From Synechococcus sp. SB0662_bin_14 (GTDB lineage Bacteria > Cyanobacteriota > Cyanobacteriia > PCC-6307 > Cyanobiaceae): a stretch of 58,183 nt of DNA. Positions 50,587 through 57,320 of the stretch are shown in pieces; the stretch's first letter is position 1, and each line of letters begins with the position of its first letter. Under the pieces are notes generated by a model. That model had not been told where the DNA came from. It worked only from the letters and a program-made list of their open reading frames with translations, and made no database searches. The stretch covers positions 1 to 58,183 of the forward strand of contig VXNS01000027.1 of assembly GCA_009840445.1 (NCBI GenBank), read 5' to 3'. The position numbers and the translations under genes are program-made.

Positions 50587-50664
50587 GGGAATGAACGGCT
50601 TCCGCGTTCCTGCTTGACGGCAACGATCAGGCTGATGGCTCCAAGGACGTGGCCCTCCTTGTCT

Positions 50665-50976
50665 CTATATGGACTGAATGATCAGTGTTTTCAGGTCACT
50701 GATGTCCTGACGGACTCCATTGATCTGACTGCTGAGGTCCTTGTAATTGGTATCGATCCGGTCGCTGAGGTCCTTGTAGTTGGTATCGATCCGGTCACTG
50801 AGATCCTTGTAGTTGGCGTCGATCTTGGCATCCAGGTGAAAAAAGGCTGCCGAGCCGAGGCTGATGATCCCCAGAAGCAGGGTCATGGTTGCGGCGGGAA
50901 CCCCGGCGGCGATACGGTCCCAGGGCAGTTGGGCCTTGGCGGGAACCGGTTTGGGAGCAGTGGTCGTGGTGGTCAT
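50665..50976 (-). CDS. Membrane-anchored hendecad coiled-coil protein A
   Basis: 103 residues. Pro/Thr N-terminus, one membrane helix (about 28-46, MTLLLGIISLGSAAFF), then three 11-residue units (IDTNYKDLSDR) and a closing helix (INGVRQDISDLKTLIIQSI). The 11-residue spacing suits a right-handed or mixed coiled coil and probably oligomers. It has the same plan as proteins B to E nearby. Function unknown; no enzymatic motif. Confidence 0.7.
   Translation of the reverse strand: MTTTTTAPKPVPAKAQLPWDRIAAGVPAATMTLLLGIISLGSAAFFHLDAKIDANYKDLSDRIDTNYKDLSDRIDTNYKDLSSQINGVRQDISDLKTLIIQSI
50725..50823 (-). repeat. 33-bp repeat x3 in protein A
   Basis: Three near-identical 33-bp units inside the coding frame, each encoding I-D-x-N-Y-K-D-L-S-x-x. 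Unit-to-unit differences are only a few bases, which suggests recent expansion. Confidence 0.8.
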
Positions 50977-51085
50977 CTGTTGCCTGGAAGCAGCGTGTAC
51001 ACCGCCGGAACCAGCCTGGCTGCTGCTTCAAGACTAGACCACGCATCAACAACCACAAGCCGAACATCTGTCTGGATAGGGGGGG

Positions 51086-51358
51086 TCAGGCTTTGGCTTT
51101 GACGGAGAGCACCGCTTCCATCAGCGCCCTCGTCTCTGCCCTGCCCTCCTGCAGTTCAGCCTTGAGATCGTCAAACCGCTTGTTCTGTCTGGCTTCGAGA
51201 TCGTCAAATCGCTGGTTCCACCTGGCTTCGAGATCGTCAAACCGTTTGTCCAGCTTGTTCCACAAAACCATCAGCACGGTCACCACAACACCGGCCCAGG
51301 CGGCCAAAGCAGCAGTCACCGCAGCCGAGGCGGCAATGATCGGGAAAGGCGGCGGCAT
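51086..51358 (-). CDS. Membrane-anchored hendecad coiled-coil protein B
   Basis: 90 residues from ATG 51358 (MPPPFPIIAASAAVTAALAA). One Ala-rich membrane helix (to about residue 33, VVVTVLMVLW), then three 11-residue units (KRFDDLEARWN, QRFDDLEARQN, KRFDDLKAELQ) and a short helical end. Divergent from protein C with a 161-base gap holding the TCTTCGAGACACA motif. Function unknown. Confidence 0.7.
   Translation of the reverse strand: MPPPFPIIAASAAVTAALAAWAGVVVTVLMVLWNKLDKRFDDLEARWNQRFDDLEARQNKRFDDLKAELQEGRAETRALMEAVLSVKAKA
51149..51247 (-). repeat. 33-bp repeat x3 in protein B
   Basis: Three 33-bp units encoding (K/Q)RFDDL(E/K)A-x-x-x. The DNA similarity between units is high (GATCGTCAAA... 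repeats on the plus strand). Confidence 0.75.
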
Positions 51359-51519
51359 CGGGCAGAGGGGAAAGGGAAAGTCCTGCCCCCAGCGTACCCA
51401 CCATCTTCGAGACACAGCCCAGCCGGCAGCACCGCCACGGAGGACGGAACGCAAAGCCCGGACCTCGCAACCCGAACCAACCGTTCAGCAAGTAGACTTG
51501 GGGGACCCGACCACCCGTT

Positions 51520-52035
51520 ATGCCCCCGCTGTTCCCTGTTCTGGCATCCTGGATTCAGCCGGGCACGTTGAGCTTGGTGGCGGTAGTCCTGCTGTGGCAA
51601 CAGGTCCGGTTCCTTGGCCAGAGGCTGGACGAGTTCGGCAAGAGAATGGACGAGTTCGGCAAGAGAATGGACGAGTTCAAGCAGGAGACCAACGCCAAGC
51701 TGGATGAGTCCAAAAGGGAGGCCAACACCAAGCTGGACGAGTTCAAGCAGGAGACCAATGCCAAGCTGGACGAGTTCAAGCAGGAAACCAACGCCAAGCT
51801 GGACGAGTCCAAAAGGGAGACCAATGCCAAGCTGGACGAGTTCAAGCAGGAAACCAATGCCAAGCTGGACGAGTTCAAAAGGGAAACCAGCGCCAGGCTG
51901 GACCGCACCGATGCCAAGCTGGATCGGATCATCGACATTCTTGTGATCCAGGCCTTGCAGGCCGGTAAGGCGTCTTCTACAGAAGGGTTAGCCGCCGCCG
52001 GTGAGTTGACGGAACGCCAGGTCCAGGCTTCGTAA
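51520..52035 (+). CDS. Membrane-anchored hendecad coiled-coil protein C (longest)
   Basis: 171 residues. The N-terminus MPPLFPVLASWIQPGTLSLV and helix to about 28 are shared with protein D. Two 7-residue units (RMDEFGK) then lead into seven 11-residue units (KLDEFKQETNA with small changes), followed by a conserved-type end RLDRTDAKLDRIIDILVIQAL. Strongly charged coiled coil. The heptad-to-hendecad switch and near-identical units point to growth by slippage. No catalytic motif; likely a membrane-tethered oligomer or spacer. Confidence 0.75.
   Translation: MPPLFPVLASWIQPGTLSLVAVVLLWQQVRFLGQRLDEFGKRMDEFGKRMDEFKQETNAKLDESKREANTKLDEFKQETNAKLDEFKQETNAKLDESKRETNAKLDEFKQETNAKLDEFKRETSARLDRTDAKLDRIIDILVIQALQAGKASSTEGLAAAGELTERQVQAS
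51667..51897 (+). repeat. 33-bp repeat x7 in protein C
   Basis: Seven in-frame 33-bp units, coding (K/M)LDE(F/S)K(Q/R)ETNA. Two alternating types (EFKQE and ESKRE) suggest that pairs of units were copied together. Copy number is likely to vary among strains. Confidence 0.88.
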
Positions 52036-52077
52036 TCGGACGATCAAGGGTTAGGCTTTGGGGACCCCCCACCCGGA

Positions 52078-52320
52078 ATGTCGGCCCTGTTCACCGTTCT
52101 TCCATCCTGGATTCAGTCTGGCACGTTGAGCTTGGTGGGGGTGATCCTTCTGTGGCAACAGGTCCGGTTCCTTGGCAAGAGACTGGACGAGTTCAAGGGG
52201 TCCCAGGACAAGAGGCTGGATGAAGTGAAGGGAGACCTGAAGGATCTTCGGAGCAAGATGGACCGCGTCCTGGAATTGCTGGCGGCCCAAGCCGCCGCCC
52301 GCGAGGCCCTGAGCAAGTAA
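52078..52320 (+). CDS. Membrane-anchored coiled-coil protein D
   Basis: 80 residues, a short paralogue of C: MSALFTVLPSWIQSGTLSLV and VILLWQQVRFLGKRLDEFKG match C almost throughout the first 39 residues. It lacks the seven repeats and ends with its own coil (LKDLRSKMDRVLELLAAQAAA). A similar leader (GGGGACCC...CACCCG) precedes both start codons, so the pair arose by tandem duplication including the 5' region. Confidence 0.75.
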   Translation: MSALFTVLPSWIQSGTLSLVGVILLWQQVRFLGKRLDEFKGSQDKRLDEVKGDLKDLRSKMDRVLELLAAQAAAREALSK

Positions 52321-52377
52321 CCAAGGCTGTCCCCCCCCCTCCCAGAACTCAGCGAGGGGTGGGGCTGATCGCGAACC

Positions 52378-52440
52378 AACCAGCTCAACGAACGGATTGA
52401 CGACCTGCGTGGCGACACCAACCGGCTTGGCGCTGGCCGC
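52378..52440 (+). pseudogene. Remnant of a sixth coiled-coil gene
   Basis: The plus frame here reads NQLNERIDDLRGDTNRLGA, like NKRIDDLRDDM in protein E, but there is no start, membrane helix or continuing frame. Probably a decayed member of the family. Confidence 0.4.
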
Positions 52441-52897
52441 CATCCACCGCGTTCCGGCATCAGCACTCGTCACGGACGGAACAGTCCCCACTGCTCAAGC
52501 CCCACTGCTTCGGCCGTATGACCCGGCATGAACACCGCCGGAACACCAGGAGCGCCACCGGAACAACCGGCCGTCAGGAGATCACCACACCAGCCAGAGG
52601 GTACCCCCCGTGCCTCCTTGCCCGTTCTGCATACGCCCATGCCACTGCCTGCACGGCAGGAAAACCGCCAGAAACCCTCGCCAATACTAGCTTCTCAACA
52701 GATTCCTGTTGCCTCGCGCCTGAAGTCCGGGCCACGGGACAGGATAGAATCCTTGCGTGGAACCCTCCCCTCCTTGGAGCTTCTGAAAGGAATTGGTCAT
52801 AAAAGCCAGTTGCCAACAAGCAGAAGGCAGGCTATGGTTCCAGATGAATCCCTTTAATCTCCTCCAACCCGAGTGAGGAGTGTTCCTCTTCAACCTC
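52441..52897. other. Gap before the surface lipoprotein gene
   Basis: No convincing gene. Short frames on both strands have low-complexity, shadow-like composition. Just before the lipoprotein start, GAGGA-GTGT-TCCTC (52873-52886) could pair and mask the Shine-Dalgarno sequence. Confidence 0.35.
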
Positions 52898-54607
52898 ATG
52901 TCCCGACCAATCATGACCACATCAAGTTTCCGGTTTCGGTCAGTCGCCCTGGCGGCCTGCTGCGCTGCCCTTCTAGTTGGATGCGGTGGTGGCTCTGACG
53001 ACACTCCAATGTCCGCCGGCCCCACAGAGGCGGAAAAAGCGGAAGAGATGGAACGCAAAGGTCGTGAGACCAGTCAACGCACGGCGATCAGGGACGCCTT
53101 GACTGCTGCAAGGGCTGCCATGGACAGAGCGGTAACTGCCGTTGCCGCTGTGAACGATACAGCGACTGACGCTCAAGTCACGGCTGCAGATACCGCGATC
53201 ACCAACGTCACAACTGCGCTCAATGGTGTAAGAACTGCAATCGGGGCTGCTGCCGAGGTTCCGGAGGCAGAAAAGACCGGGTACAGTGGGGAGCACACCT
53301 CGCTCAGCAATCAGCTAAGGAGTCTCACAGATCAGCTAGCGACCGCCAAGACTTCCCGCGATACAGCGATGGATGCTGCTGATGAAGCTAAGCGTAAGGA
53401 GATGGCAGCCACTGGAATGGCGTTGAAGACAGCAATTGGGGCGGCCCCTCTGAGCTATCTCTCAGGTGACGGCTCTGCGGGTGTATCTTTAGCCTCAGCA
53501 GGGCTTACTGTTCAAGCGGACCCAGACCTCGCTAACACTGGCAGCACCCTAATTTCCGTAACATTAGAAGAAGGGGATTCCGCCGGCAGTTTGGGTGACT
53601 GGAAGGGCATACACTATGCTACTGAAGTCGATGAAGGTGATGATGATATGAAGGTTAACACTGCCGTGATTTATACAAATAAGGATTCTGCGAAATCTGA
53701 GCCAGTGGAGACCTATTATGTGACGGTGTCTAATAGACCTACCCAAGTTAGTAACTATGTCCCGGCTACAAAGACACTAACCTTGGACGCAGCCAAGCAC
53801 ATGAAGATGGAAAGTTCGGAGTTTCCGACCGCTGGTACGAAAACTTACGACAAATCAGGCAATGATAAGGCAGAATTCAGGGGATCTTATCACGGTATAG
53901 CCGGCACGTACTTTTGCACTAGCACTGAGGCATGCACGGCGACATATGCGGCGGACGGCATCACCCTCGCCGGAACCTGGACATTTGTGCATGATCCTGG
54001 CGCAACAGTGTCGGTTCCAAGCAACGACTACTTATACTTTGGCTGGTGGCTGCACAAGGACAAGGACGGTTCAAAATATGCCAGCGCGTTCTATGGCACT
54101 GCTGGCACTGTAACAAGCGAGAACGCTTACACAACAACCACCCTCGAAAATTTAGGTGGCATGGCGACCTATAGTGGCAAGGCTGCCGGGAAGTTCGCTA
54201 TAGATAACCTGCTTACGGGCACGGGCGATGCCGGGCACTTCACGGCGGACGTCAAGCTGACTGCCAAGTTTGATGCTGCTCCCTCTGGTGGGGGTATCTC
54301 CGGCGTGATCGATAACTTCTATCTCAACGACGTAAAACCAAAAGATACTTGGAGCGTGGAGTTGAAGAATACCTCTTGGGACGCGAATGCCAACTTCCCC
54401 AGTGCAGCCTTTAGCACCGCCAATCCAGATCACACGGTGTGGTCCATAAACGGCAGGAAAGCGGAAGCATCCGGTAGTTGGAAGGGCACGGTGTATGATC
54501 TGGAGGACGACGGCTCCAACTTGCCAACCATGGTCACCGGTAGTTTCCATTCTGAGTTCGGCTCAACCCACTCCATGGTCGGCGCCTTCGGTGCTGAGAA
54601 AGACTGA
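52898..54607 (+). CDS. TbpB-like surface lipoprotein, intact copy
   Basis: 569 residues from ATG 52898 (GTG 52880 is possible). The signal peptide ends in a lipobox, AALLVGC-GGG. An Ala/Thr-rich helical stalk follows (about 45-190, e.g. TALNGVRTAIGAAAEVPEAE). Then comes a beta-rich domain ending in the TbpB-type barrel: GGMATYSGKAAGKFAI, GHFTADVKLTAKFD, GISGVIDNFYL, GSWKGTVYDLEDDG and the last strand HSMVGAFGAEKD. In proteobacteria such barrels bind host proteins or metal carriers on the cell surface. Base composition is clearly more AT-rich than the neighbours, suggesting transfer. Ligand unknown. Confidence 0.8.
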   Translation: MSRPIMTTSSFRFRSVALAACCAALLVGCGGGSDDTPMSAGPTEAEKAEEMERKGRETSQRTAIRDALTAARAAMDRAVTAVAAVNDTATDAQVTAADTAITNVTTALNGVRTAIGAAAEVPEAEKTGYSGEHTSLSNQLRSLTDQLATAKTSRDTAMDAADEAKRKEMAATGMALKTAIGAAPLSYLSGDGSAGVSLASAGLTVQADPDLANTGSTLISVTLEEGDSAGSLGDWKGIHYATEVDEGDDDMKVNTAVIYTNKDSAKSEPVETYYVTVSNRPTQVSNYVPATKTLTLDAAKHMKMESSEFPTAGTKTYDKSGNDKAEFRGSYHGIAGTYFCTSTEACTATYAADGITLAGTWTFVHDPGATVSVPSNDYLYFGWWLHKDKDGSKYASAFYGTAGTVTSENAYTTTTLENLGGMATYSGKAAGKFAIDNLLTGTGDAGHFTADVKLTAKFDAAPSGGGISGVIDNFYLNDVKPKDTWSVELKNTSWDANANFPSAAFSTANPDHTVWSINGRKAEASGSWKGTVYDLEDDGSNLPTMVTGSFHSEFGSTHSMVGAFGAEKD

Positions 54608-56345
54608 TTCAGTCTATCCCACCATCTCAGTCTCAATATACGGGCTCTGGTTTCTATAGAAACCAGAGCCCGTTCTCTATGTAAGCCCCCTGGCGGCCTG
54701 CTGCGCTGCCCTTCTAGTTGGATGCGGTGGTGGCTCTGACGACACTCCAATGTCCGCCGGCCCCACAGAGGCGGAAAAAGCGGAAGAGATGGAACGCAAA
54801 GGTCGTGAGACCAGTCAACGCACGGCGATCAGGGACGCCTTGACTGCTGCAAGGGCTGCCATGGACAGAGCGGTAACTGCCGTTGCCGCTGTGAACGATA
54901 CAGCGACTGACGCTCAAGTCACGGCTGCAGATACCGCGATCACCAACGTCACAACTGCGCTCAATGGTGTAAGAACTGCAATCGGGGCTGCTGCCGAGGT
55001 TCCGGAGGCAGAAAAGACCGGGTACAGTGGGGAGCACACCTCGCTCAGCAATCAGCTAAGGAGTCTCACAGATCAGCTAGCGACCGCCAAGACTTCCCGC
55101 GATACAGCGATGGATGCTGCTGATGAAGCTAAGCGTAAGGAGATGGCAGCCACTGGAATGGCGTTGAAGACAGCAATTGGGGCGGCCCCTCTGAGCTATC
55201 TCTCAGGTGACGGCTCTGCGGGTGTATCTTTAGCCTCAGCAGGGCTTACTGTTCAAGCGGACCCAGACCTCGCTAACACTGGCAGCACCCTAATTTCCGT
55301 AACATTAGAAGAAGGGGATTCCGCCGGCAGTTTGGGTGACTGGAAGGGCATACACTATGCTACTGAAGTCGATGAAGGTGATGATGATATGAAGGTTAAC
55401 ACTGCCGTGATTTATACAAATAAGGATTCTGCGAAATCTGAGCCAGTGGAGACCTATTATGTGACGGTGTCTAATAGACCTACCCAAGTTAGTAACTATG
55501 TCCCGGCTACAAAGACACTAACCTTGGACGCAGCCAAGCACATGAAGATGGAAAGTTCGGAGTTTCCGACCGCTGGTACGAAAACTTACGACAAATCAGG
55601 CAATGATAAGGCAGAATTCAGGGGATCTTATCACGGTATAGCCGGCACGTACTTTTGCACTAGCACTGAGGCATGCACGGCGACATATGCGGCGGACGGC
55701 ATCACCCTCGCCGGAACCTGGACATTTGTGCATGATCCTGGCGCAACAGTGTCGGTTCCAAGCAACGACTACTTATACTTTGGCTGGTGGCTGCACAAGG
55801 ACAAGGACGGTTCAAAATATGCCAGCGCGTTCTATGGCACTGCTGGCACTGTAACAAGCGAGAACGCTTACACAACAACCACCCTCGAAAATTTAGGTGG
55901 CATGGCGACCTATAGTGGCAAGGCTGCCGGGAAGTTCGCTATAGATAACCTGCTTACGGGCACGGGCGATGCCGGGCACTTCACGGCGGACGTCAAGCTG
56001 ACTGCCAAGTTTGATGCTGCTCCCTCTGGTGGGGGTATCTCCGGCGTGATCGATAACTTCTATCTCAACGACGTAAAACCAAAAGATACTTGGAGCGTGG
56101 AGTTGAAGAATACCTCTTGGGACGCGAATGCCAACTTCCCCAGTGCAGCCTTTAGCACCGCCAATCCAGATCACACGGTGTGGTCCATAAACGGCAGGAA
56201 AGCGGAAGCATCCGGTAGTTGGAAGGGCACGGTGTATGATCTGGAGGACGACGGCTCCAACTTGCCAACCATGGTCACCGGTAGTTTCCATTCTGAGTTC
56301 GGCTCAACCCACTCCATGGTCGGCGCCTTCGGTGCTGAGAAAGAC
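52947..56345 (+). repeat. 1658-bp tandem direct repeat
   Basis: 52947-54604 and 54688-56345 look identical base for base (offset 1741), separated by 83 bases. The left boundary is inside the signal-peptide codons and the right boundary two codons before the stop. Identity over this length means a very recent event, or continuing gene conversion, or an assembly artefact. Confidence 0.9.
54641..54680 (+). terminator. Perfect 32-bp palindrome terminator
   Basis: CGGGCTCTGGTTTCTA joined to its exact reverse complement TAGAAACCAGAGCCCG (54641-54672), followed by TTCTCTAT. It lies 33 bases after the stop of the intact lipoprotein gene and should stop transcription before the second copy. Confidence 0.75.
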
Positions 56346-56450
56346 GACCGGCCCCTTGAACTGGCCGCCAGGCCTGCAAGCCATTCCCTCAAAAGGCCTG
56401 GACCCCTACGCAGCGGAATTTGCGGGCAGATACAACATCCGTCCCCGTAA
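54688..56450 (+). pseudogene. Headless second copy of the TbpB-like lipoprotein gene
   Basis: Identical to the intact gene from the middle of the signal peptide to the final AEKD. The in-frame codons upstream (LYVSPLAACC) have no ATG/GTG/TTG, and a stop (TAG) precedes them. The first ATG is at 54750, after the lipobox, so a product from there would be cytosolic. The palindrome terminator lies just upstream, so it is probably not transcribed. The C-terminus loses the stop and reads 35 residues into the transposase remnant in another frame. It may serve as a donor cassette for recombination. Confidence 0.8.
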
Positions 56451-56526
56451 CACCGCTGACCAGATGAACTGGGCTGTCAGGGGAATGCGTGGGCAACGGC
56501 TTCGCTACCAGGACTTGATTGCCTGA
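56346..56526 (+). pseudogene. C-terminal transposase remnant
   Basis: The frame TGPLNWPPGLQA, GLDPYAAEFAGRYNIRPRNT, ADQMNWAVRGMRGQRLRYQDLIA-stop resembles the end of DDE transposases with EFAGRHNxRxxDTxDQM and GKRLRYxDL motifs (IS1595/ISXO2-like, from memory). It begins exactly where the 1658-bp repeat ends, so the duplication junction lies inside a former insertion sequence or the insertion was cut by it. Confidence 0.55.
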
Positions 56527-56580
56527 GCCTTGACAAAATGACTTGGTAACGGGTAAGGGAGGAGGCTTTTTTGTTGTCTT

Positions 56581-56628
56581 CCATGTGTCCTGGCATATGC
56601 GCAACCATGTGTCCTGGCATATGCGCAA
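56581..56628. repeat. 24-bp tandem repeat x2
   Basis: CCATGTGTCCTGGCATATGC plus GCAA, repeated twice head to tail. Contains the palindrome GCATATGC. Downstream of the transposase remnant; may be an old insertion-sequence end or an intergenic repeat. Confidence 0.7.
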
Positions 56629-56714
56629 CAGCCCGTCACGAGCTTCCTGGGGGCGCCCCGTTCAGGTCGGTTACCATGAGCGGACCTGCCTGCCGGTCTT
56701 CCTCTGTGGGGAAT

Positions 56715-56957
56715 TCAGCGATCCGGGGTAACGGGTTGCGAGAAACGGGCTTCCAGCAGGCGGTCCAGCTTTGCATCCAAGGCTCTGTTATCTTCCCGGT
56801 GCCGGGTGTCCATGGTCTTCATGTCGTCCCGCAAGTCGTCAATCCTCTTATTCACCCTGGCCTCACTGGCCTTGAGCTCATACCAGATCAGCCCCAAAAA
56901 GGCAGTGAAGAAGCCCGATGGTAACCATTCAGTCAGTCCGGGGGGGATTGTTGGCAC
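56715..56957 (-). CDS. Membrane-anchored coiled-coil protein E
   Basis: 80 residues: MPTIPPGLTEWLPSGFFTAF, a short membrane helix (to about 27), then a charged coil KASEARVNKRIDDLRDDM, HREDNRALDAKLDRLLEARF. Same plan as A to D, and the AKLDR end matches protein C; the N-terminal Pro/Leu-Pro-x-Trp region resembles C and D. No expanded repeats here. It is separated from A-D by the duplicated lipoprotein genes. Confidence 0.65.
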   Translation of the reverse strand: MPTIPPGLTEWLPSGFFTAFLGLIWYELKASEARVNKRIDDLRDDMKTMDTRHREDNRALDAKLDRLLEARFSQPVTPDR

Positions 56958-57160
56958 GGGTCTGTCGGGATGTGCTGCCAGTCTACCTTGCCGGGTCTGG
57001 CAGGGCTGTAGACCATGCCCTTACATGAACCACAGTGGGGCAACGCCCCCAACCAGGCCTGATGCCCATCGTCTTCCCCTTGCTGGTGCTGGTCCTGGGG
57101 CAGCCCCCAGGTTGCCACCGGTCTCTCTTGAGGTGGTGCAACCCCGCCCCAGTGTTCCAC

Positions 57161-57320
57161 CGTCTTCGAGACACATCCCACGGACCCGACCTCGGCTACG
57201 ACACGACAACAGCAGCAGGCGCCATGGCAGCGGGCAAGGGTTCCCTCGCAGAACGCCCCTGACTCCACGTCAGTGGCCAGACGGCAAACTGGCCACTCTT
57301 TAACCCGGAACCGTTATGAG
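57161..57320. repeat. Dispersed intergenic repeat, copy 2
   Basis: Shares blocks with 8652-8861 in the same order (CGTCTTCGA, CGACAACAGCAG, CCATGG, GCGGGCAAGGGT, then ACCGTTATGA). In this copy a strong hairpin lies near the right end. Non-coding, between protein E and the rubrerythrin gene. Confidence 0.5.
57272..57301 (+). terminator. Hairpin in dispersed repeat copy 2
   Basis: AGTGGCCAG-ACGGCAAA-CTGGCCACT is a perfect 9-bp stem followed by CTTT. It may act as a terminator ahead of the rubrerythrin gene, or it may be only part of the repeat. Confidence 0.5.

Follow-up and report, generated by a model that had tools for sequence, protein, structure and literature searches.

The window studied here, a stretch of 58,183 nucleotides that constitutes contig C64 of a 2.16-Mb genome of Synechococcus sp. 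SB0662_bin_14, carries several members of a family of small, genus-restricted single-pass membrane proteins that consist of three exchangeable modules, i.e. an anchor in the membrane, a stalk that forms a coiled coil and a short cap at the C-terminus. On balance we lean towards the view that these proteins act as oligomeric membrane tethers, and that recombination reassorts their stalk lengths, anchors and caps.

Five open reading frames (A to E) and one remnant had been described on a single plan in a sequence-only reading of this DNA, and all six are present. According to the ORF calls, gene A (50665..50976, minus strand) encodes a class II protein of 103 amino acids with a Thr/Pro-rich basic N-terminal tail, a single helix, a coil that is predicted to lie outside and three hendecads (IDTNYKDLSDR); a homologue is found in another genome of the genus (G006:C74, E 1.5e-9). 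The other four ORFs are called as class I genes. Gene B (51086..51358, minus strand, 90 amino acids) combines the anchor AWAGVVVTVLMVLWNKLDKRF with three hendecads (RFDDLEARxNx) and the cap LKAELQEGRAETRALMEAVLSVKA, and gene C (51520..52035, plus strand, 171 amino acids) combines the anchor WIQPGTLSLVAVVLLWQQVRFLG with 2.5 heptads followed by seven hendecads (KLDEFKQETNA). Gene D (52078..52320, plus strand, 80 amino acids) has the anchor of C, a short coil and the cap KMDRVLELLAAQAA. Gene E (56715..56957, minus strand, 80 amino acids, GTG start) has the anchor LTEWLPSGFFTAFLGLIWYELKASEARVNKRIDDL and the cap DNRALDAKLDRLLEARF, and relatives of the E type are the commonest type found in the genus. 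The class I remnant (52342..52434, plus strand; NQLNERIDDLRGDTNRL) reads ...TNQLNERIDDLRGDTNRL and contains a stop in frame; in blastx searches its matches to family members have E values of about 1e-4.

The 33-bp period that had been reported for A, B and C was recovered by the TRF program as arrays of 2.8 copies in A (50731-50824), 2.6 copies in B (51164-51249) and 7.2 copies in C (51668-51903), and D and E are without a tandem repeat. Two features of C had been missed, namely a 21-bp array of 2.5 copies at the start of the coil (51626-51678, 'KRMDEFG') and a 99-bp higher-order unit. The period itself is not special. Tandem repeats were detected in 59 of 99 member ORFs, which were collected from the loci around matches with an N-terminal helix as the selection criterion, and the base period of 21 bp (20 ORFs) is as common as that of 33 bp (19 ORFs), followed by 54 bp (7) and by 66, 75 and 87 bp (3 each). 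A separate 12-bp tandem array at the start of the contig (positions 1-322 of the window, CAGGAGGATCTA, 14.7 copies) is unrelated to the coil family.

What the repeats have in common is their length in terms of the coil. The period corresponds to 7, 11, 18, 22, 25 or 29 residues in 55 of the 59 repeat-bearing ORFs, all of them sums of the form 7a+11b, and the remaining four ORFs have other periods in weak arrays. Lengths of this form make up 38% of all lengths between 5 and 33, and the non-family tandem repeats in the same loci have mostly other periods (8, 12, 15, 18, 24 and 90-102 bp). Since all these unit lengths are of the form 7a+11b, the phase of the coil is kept when units are gained or lost. 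The gaps of at least four residues between close homologues show a similar tendency, the most frequent lengths being 7 (27 times), 11 (16 times) and 4 (16 times), and the next 14, 18, 22 and 25; note that a gap of four residues is often part of a split change of 11 or 18 residues. The helical period of the coils is between 3.60 and 3.65 residues in A to E; when compared with shuffled sequences, the periodicity of A, C and D was above nearly all shuffles, and that of B and E was borderline (54 and 100 of 1000). The suggestion that selection acts on something other than the exact sequence is supported, with the coil phase as its object. The rule is partly mechanical, because slippage on an existing repeat automatically retains its unit and the members are related to each other, so that it reflects mechanism as well as selection.

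Slippage is only one half of the picture. It had been proposed as the source of length changes, and changes by whole in-frame units are indeed seen, but anchors and caps are also swapped between genes. In separate comparisons of the anchor DNA and of the final 66 bp of each coding sequence, 15 pairs were found to have the same cap with a different anchor, and 11 pairs the same anchor with a different cap, although some of the latter have truncated or shifted ends and are not countable as exchanges. The clearest case is the cap LPLKIMEMLRKAPR, which is 79-91% identical at the nucleotide level and occurs on four anchor types whose mutual nucleotide identity (0.45-0.55) is that of shuffled sequences (null median 0.53). 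Genes C and D constitute one of the same-anchor pairs. They had been described as near-identical before the repeats, and this is true of the anchor (84% nucleotide identity), whereas beyond it the C-termini are identical at chance level (50%). Moreover, the two halves of E match two separate genes of a single island in genome G003 (contig C33), the 5' part with 78% identity and the 3' part with 70%. The natural reading is that such mosaics arise by recombination through the coil DNA.

The family appears to be essentially restricted to one genus of sponge-dwelling cyanobacteria, i.e. Candidatus Synechococcus spongiarum and its relatives. Every one of the ten genomes of the genus has members, with at least 23 in the genome of the window; these counts come from searches and are lower bounds. 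With protein E as a query, relatives were found in all ten genomes, and six of the seven best genomes gave between 22 and 28 matches apiece. A profile of E-like sequences searched against 300 genomes of the taxonomic family (59 genera) had matches in nine of the ten genomes of this genus, and outside it gave a single marginal match, inside a 380-residue frame. A second profile gave the same picture in 299 genomes of the order (the listed ones all belonging to the same family), with essentially no matches outside the genus, and a profile of the other class matched all ten genomes of the genus, with one marginal match elsewhere, inside a 3,218-residue frame. One member compared with 84,980 species matched ten loci, all of them in Ca. 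Synechococcus spongiarum or in Prochlorococcaceae and other cyanobacterial MAGs, and the MAGs with the best matches belong to this genus. Genome contigs and viral contigs were searched with single proteins as queries; no relatives of E were found in phages, plasmids or IMG/VR contigs, on which ground a mobile-element vehicle was rejected. The most divergent genome, G001, has a single E-like gene and three matches of the other class, so the expansion of the E-like genes probably came after the separation of G001. A literature search on coiled-coil proteins in Ca. S. spongiarum returned no relevant papers.

The members tend to lie at the ends of contigs. According to a hand count of the matches in the window's genome, about 9 of 35 members are less than 500 bp from a contig end, as compared with 1.4 expected, and therefore the copy numbers are lower bounds and the repeat numbers provisional.

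One branch of class II, characterised by the C-terminus VYQLLL or a similar one, lies immediately upstream of a pspA/IM30-like gene, in the same orientation. The distance from the end of the class II gene to pspA is 68-110 bp in G000, G002, G003, G005, G006 and G008, and in G004 two class II genes precede pspA, the second of which is truncated; the link is thus found in seven genomes. The length of the coil varies among these syntenic copies. In one of them (G000:C66:1-263) the end of the contig cuts the gene inside the coil repeats, which is an example of the family breaking assemblies. Among 24 genomes of other genera of the taxonomic family in which the pspA locus was examined, none of the 22 whose upstream DNA extends over 1.1 kb or more carries such a gene, and none is present in the 268 bp that separate pspA from the contig end in G001. 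The position points to a putative role in membrane maintenance for this one class II branch; genes A to E themselves are not beside pspA. By analogy with this branch, the other members may have a role as tethers or adaptors.

The ORFs are real genes under purifying selection. For every one of the 94 homologous pairs with a usable estimate the dN/dS ratio is smaller than 1 (median 0.26), from which it follows that the frames are real, and the differences at codon positions 1, 2 and 3 number 1299, 826 and 2280. The pairs were picked at a protein identity of at least 55%, which biases the ratios towards low values; in the 20 pairs with at least 90% nucleotide identity the median is near 0.19. For the genes of the window the values are 0.14 and 0.32 for B against its relatives, 0.48 for C against D and 0.48 for E. 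Relatives with the same layout and intact frames are present in the sister genomes, so that the sequence-only reading passes the check it had set itself. One may ask whether the family is instead a recent and largely neutral bloom of self-duplicating, low-complexity coil ORFs, many of them near-functionless, in the manner of selfish repeats. The copies are numerous, some of them contain stops or are fragmentary, they are over-represented at contig ends, and hendecad amplification is generally known as a route to new coils. We nevertheless find a neutral bloom unlikely, given that dN/dS is below 1 in every pair, that anchors and caps are conserved, and that a syntenic member upstream of pspA has been retained in seven genomes.

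The genomic surroundings are mixed. The 95 neighbours scanned are mostly other genes, often housekeeping ones (argH, ndhI, sufS and the like), and neither a common function nor a constant partner gene was seen among them. This bears on the idea that the proteins serve phage defence or toxin-antitoxin units as small membrane effectors or regulators, as some members do adjoin genes for a type I methylase, a SoFic-like Fic protein, type IIG or type III systems, or CRISPR. Against the background of the other neighbours, and with E having no relatives among phages, plasmids or viruses, we give a defence function little credence.

Some observations on the loci may be added. Class I genes (two, one and one) occur at loci L191, L213 and L005 (G003:C31, G004:C104 and G000:C72) in a variable segment together with type I methylase, SoFic-like Fic and nucleotidyltransferase-like ORFs. 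ORFs with ankyrin repeats are found near several members (L219, L231, L236 and L242, in G005 and G002), and several of these have DNA repeats of 90-102 bp. No shared DNA element was found in the 99 upstream regions; the motif TCTTCGAGACA near B and E was considered as such an element and rejected, as it occurs at only five places in 620 kb.

The orientation of the proteins was predicted from the distribution of charged residues. The mean number of Lys and Arg residues is 0.30 in the 15 residues before the helix and 3.36 after it (99 members), and 91 of the 99 members have more of them after the helix. Genes B to E have none ahead of the helix and several behind it, so that by the positive-inside rule the N-terminus is predicted to be outside and the coil in the cytoplasm; this topology remains a prediction, because the coils are charged anyway. 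A has three such residues before the helix and one after it, and some of its relatives are likewise charged in front, i.e. the coil of A and of these relatives may be outside. In the AlphaFold model, E is one uninterrupted helix (residues 8-73, mean pLDDT 78), in which the membrane helix would run straight into the coil.

Genes A to E lie in an island (50590..57270) that is flanked on the left by a bla-like and an NlpC/P60 gene and on the right by a rubrerythrin gene. The flanks are conserved in the relatives, yet adjoin each other in none of them. In G003 a separate cluster comes after the NlpC/P60 gene, with A-like, B-like and E-like genes, further anchor types and a relative of the lipoprotein; the island is therefore old and its gene content is turning over. 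The lipoprotein-like gene is present in the window as tandem copies (52913-54607 and 54690-56345) that are nearly identical over 1.6 kb. The second copy may not be expressed, because it has no start and no signal region; it runs into what is apparently the 3' end of an IS1595/ISXO2-like transposase (56346-56526, ADQMNWAVRGMRGQRLRYQDLIA). The end of the gene (GAFGAE, beta-rich) presumably resembles lipoproteins of the TbpB/Slam type; a Pfam search gave no match, and the predicted structure (pLDDT 44) was too poor for a structure search. A perfect palindrome of 34 bp, which may be a terminator, lies 3' of the first copy (54640-54673), and an exact 24-bp direct repeat is found in two copies at 56581-56629.

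The proximity of this gene had suggested a shared role in the envelope, a suggestion that we do not uphold. In its fuller form it would make the family variable envelope or host-facing proteins that act with the duplicated lipoprotein, a form of cassette variation. The matching island of G003 also holds the lipoprotein family, and A and some class II proteins have basic residues before the helix, which may place their coils outside. It seems improbable all the same: B to E are predicted to have the N-terminus outside and the C-terminus inside, neither a signal peptide nor a sorting motif was seen in them, and most members elsewhere adjoin other, often housekeeping genes.

According to the tether model that we favour, the proteins would form parallel coiled-coil bundles in either the plasma membrane or the thylakoid membrane. 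In class I, i.e. B to E and most members, the length of the stalk would determine how far away the cap is held in the cytoplasm, and the proteins would tether cytoplasmic partners to the membrane or serve them as adaptors. In class II, as in A, the stalk would be directed the opposite way, and one class II branch would cooperate with PspA in maintaining the membrane. New versions would come about by recombination through the repetitive coil DNA, which would alter the length of the stalk and reassort anchors and caps, and the duplicates would afterwards scatter into intergenic spaces. More tentatively, it is conceivable that the family forms a combinatorial repertoire under active recombination, in which the coil DNA serves as the joint, providing many membrane tethers with different specificities, and that it expanded when the lineage took up sponge symbiosis.

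Coiled coils are considered easy to invent and to lengthen, but there are few cases in which the steps can be followed among close relatives. From the dozens of related genes described here one can read off the tolerated length changes, namely whole units of 7 or 11 residues, and the way in which anchors and caps are traded, which makes the family a natural experiment in the birth and recombination of simple coiled-coil proteins. It also marks one clade of sponge symbionts and has no name in the public family libraries searched, and the branch tied to pspA, a membrane-stress gene, offers a first testable function.

The view that no named family covers A to E stands. All five stay below the curated cut-offs of Pfam and NCBIfam, and in PHROGs single members give weak coiled-coil matches, the best (about 1e-5) with the long coil of C; any coiled coil gives weak matches of this kind. 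Two Pfam candidates were rejected, both of them for C only: DUF948 (PF06103) with 21.8 bits against a cut-off of 37.2, and Apolipoprotein A1/A4/E (PF01442) with 29.7 bits against a cut-off of 90, the latter match being a resemblance of the 11-residue periodicity. A sequence search of the PDB gave generic coils only, and a weak profile match (E 0.02) was to 6h9l, which we take to be a member of the MCUR1/CCDC90 family. This family and its prokaryotic relatives share with ours a membrane-anchored coiled-coil stalk of variable length, but they have a C-terminal anchor and an N-terminal head, whereas the anchor is N-terminal in A to E, and there was no Pfam match (DUF1640) at E values up to 1.

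The Bdr proteins of Borrelia are likewise a multigene family with short tandem repeats in a coil-like region and one membrane helix. Their repeat is a different one and their helix is C-terminal, whereas in A to E it is N-terminal (in the collected members by selection). PspB is a small protein with an N-terminal helix and a cytoplasmic coil, encoded beside pspA in E. coli. The likeness is in this layout, with a cytoplasmic coil predicted for B to E, and in the class II branch that also adjoins pspA, but that branch has the opposite predicted topology; the charge rule fits a PspB-like topology for B to E and not for A, A to E are not beside pspA, and they gave no match to a Pfam or NCBIfam profile of PspB at E values up to 1.

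A further comparison is with hendecad proteins, which are defined by tandem units of 11 residues with 3-4-4 hydrophobic spacing and a periodicity near 3.67. Units of 33 bp are present in A, B and C, with periods of 3.63, 3.60 (alone not significant) and 3.65. Tandem amplification of hendecads is reportedly a route by which new coiled coils arise, and the likeness is that 11-residue coil units have been amplified in tandem in short proteins. A survey of hendecad proteins (Martinez-Goikoetxea and Lupas 2023, J Struct Biol 215:108007) is cited in PMC11676326. The present family differs from such families in that heptads and units of 18, 22, 25 and 29 residues are mixed with the hendecads, and in that anchors and caps are exchanged. 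To our knowledge, this combination of mixed 7- and 11-residue units with mosaic ends in one bacterial lineage is new.
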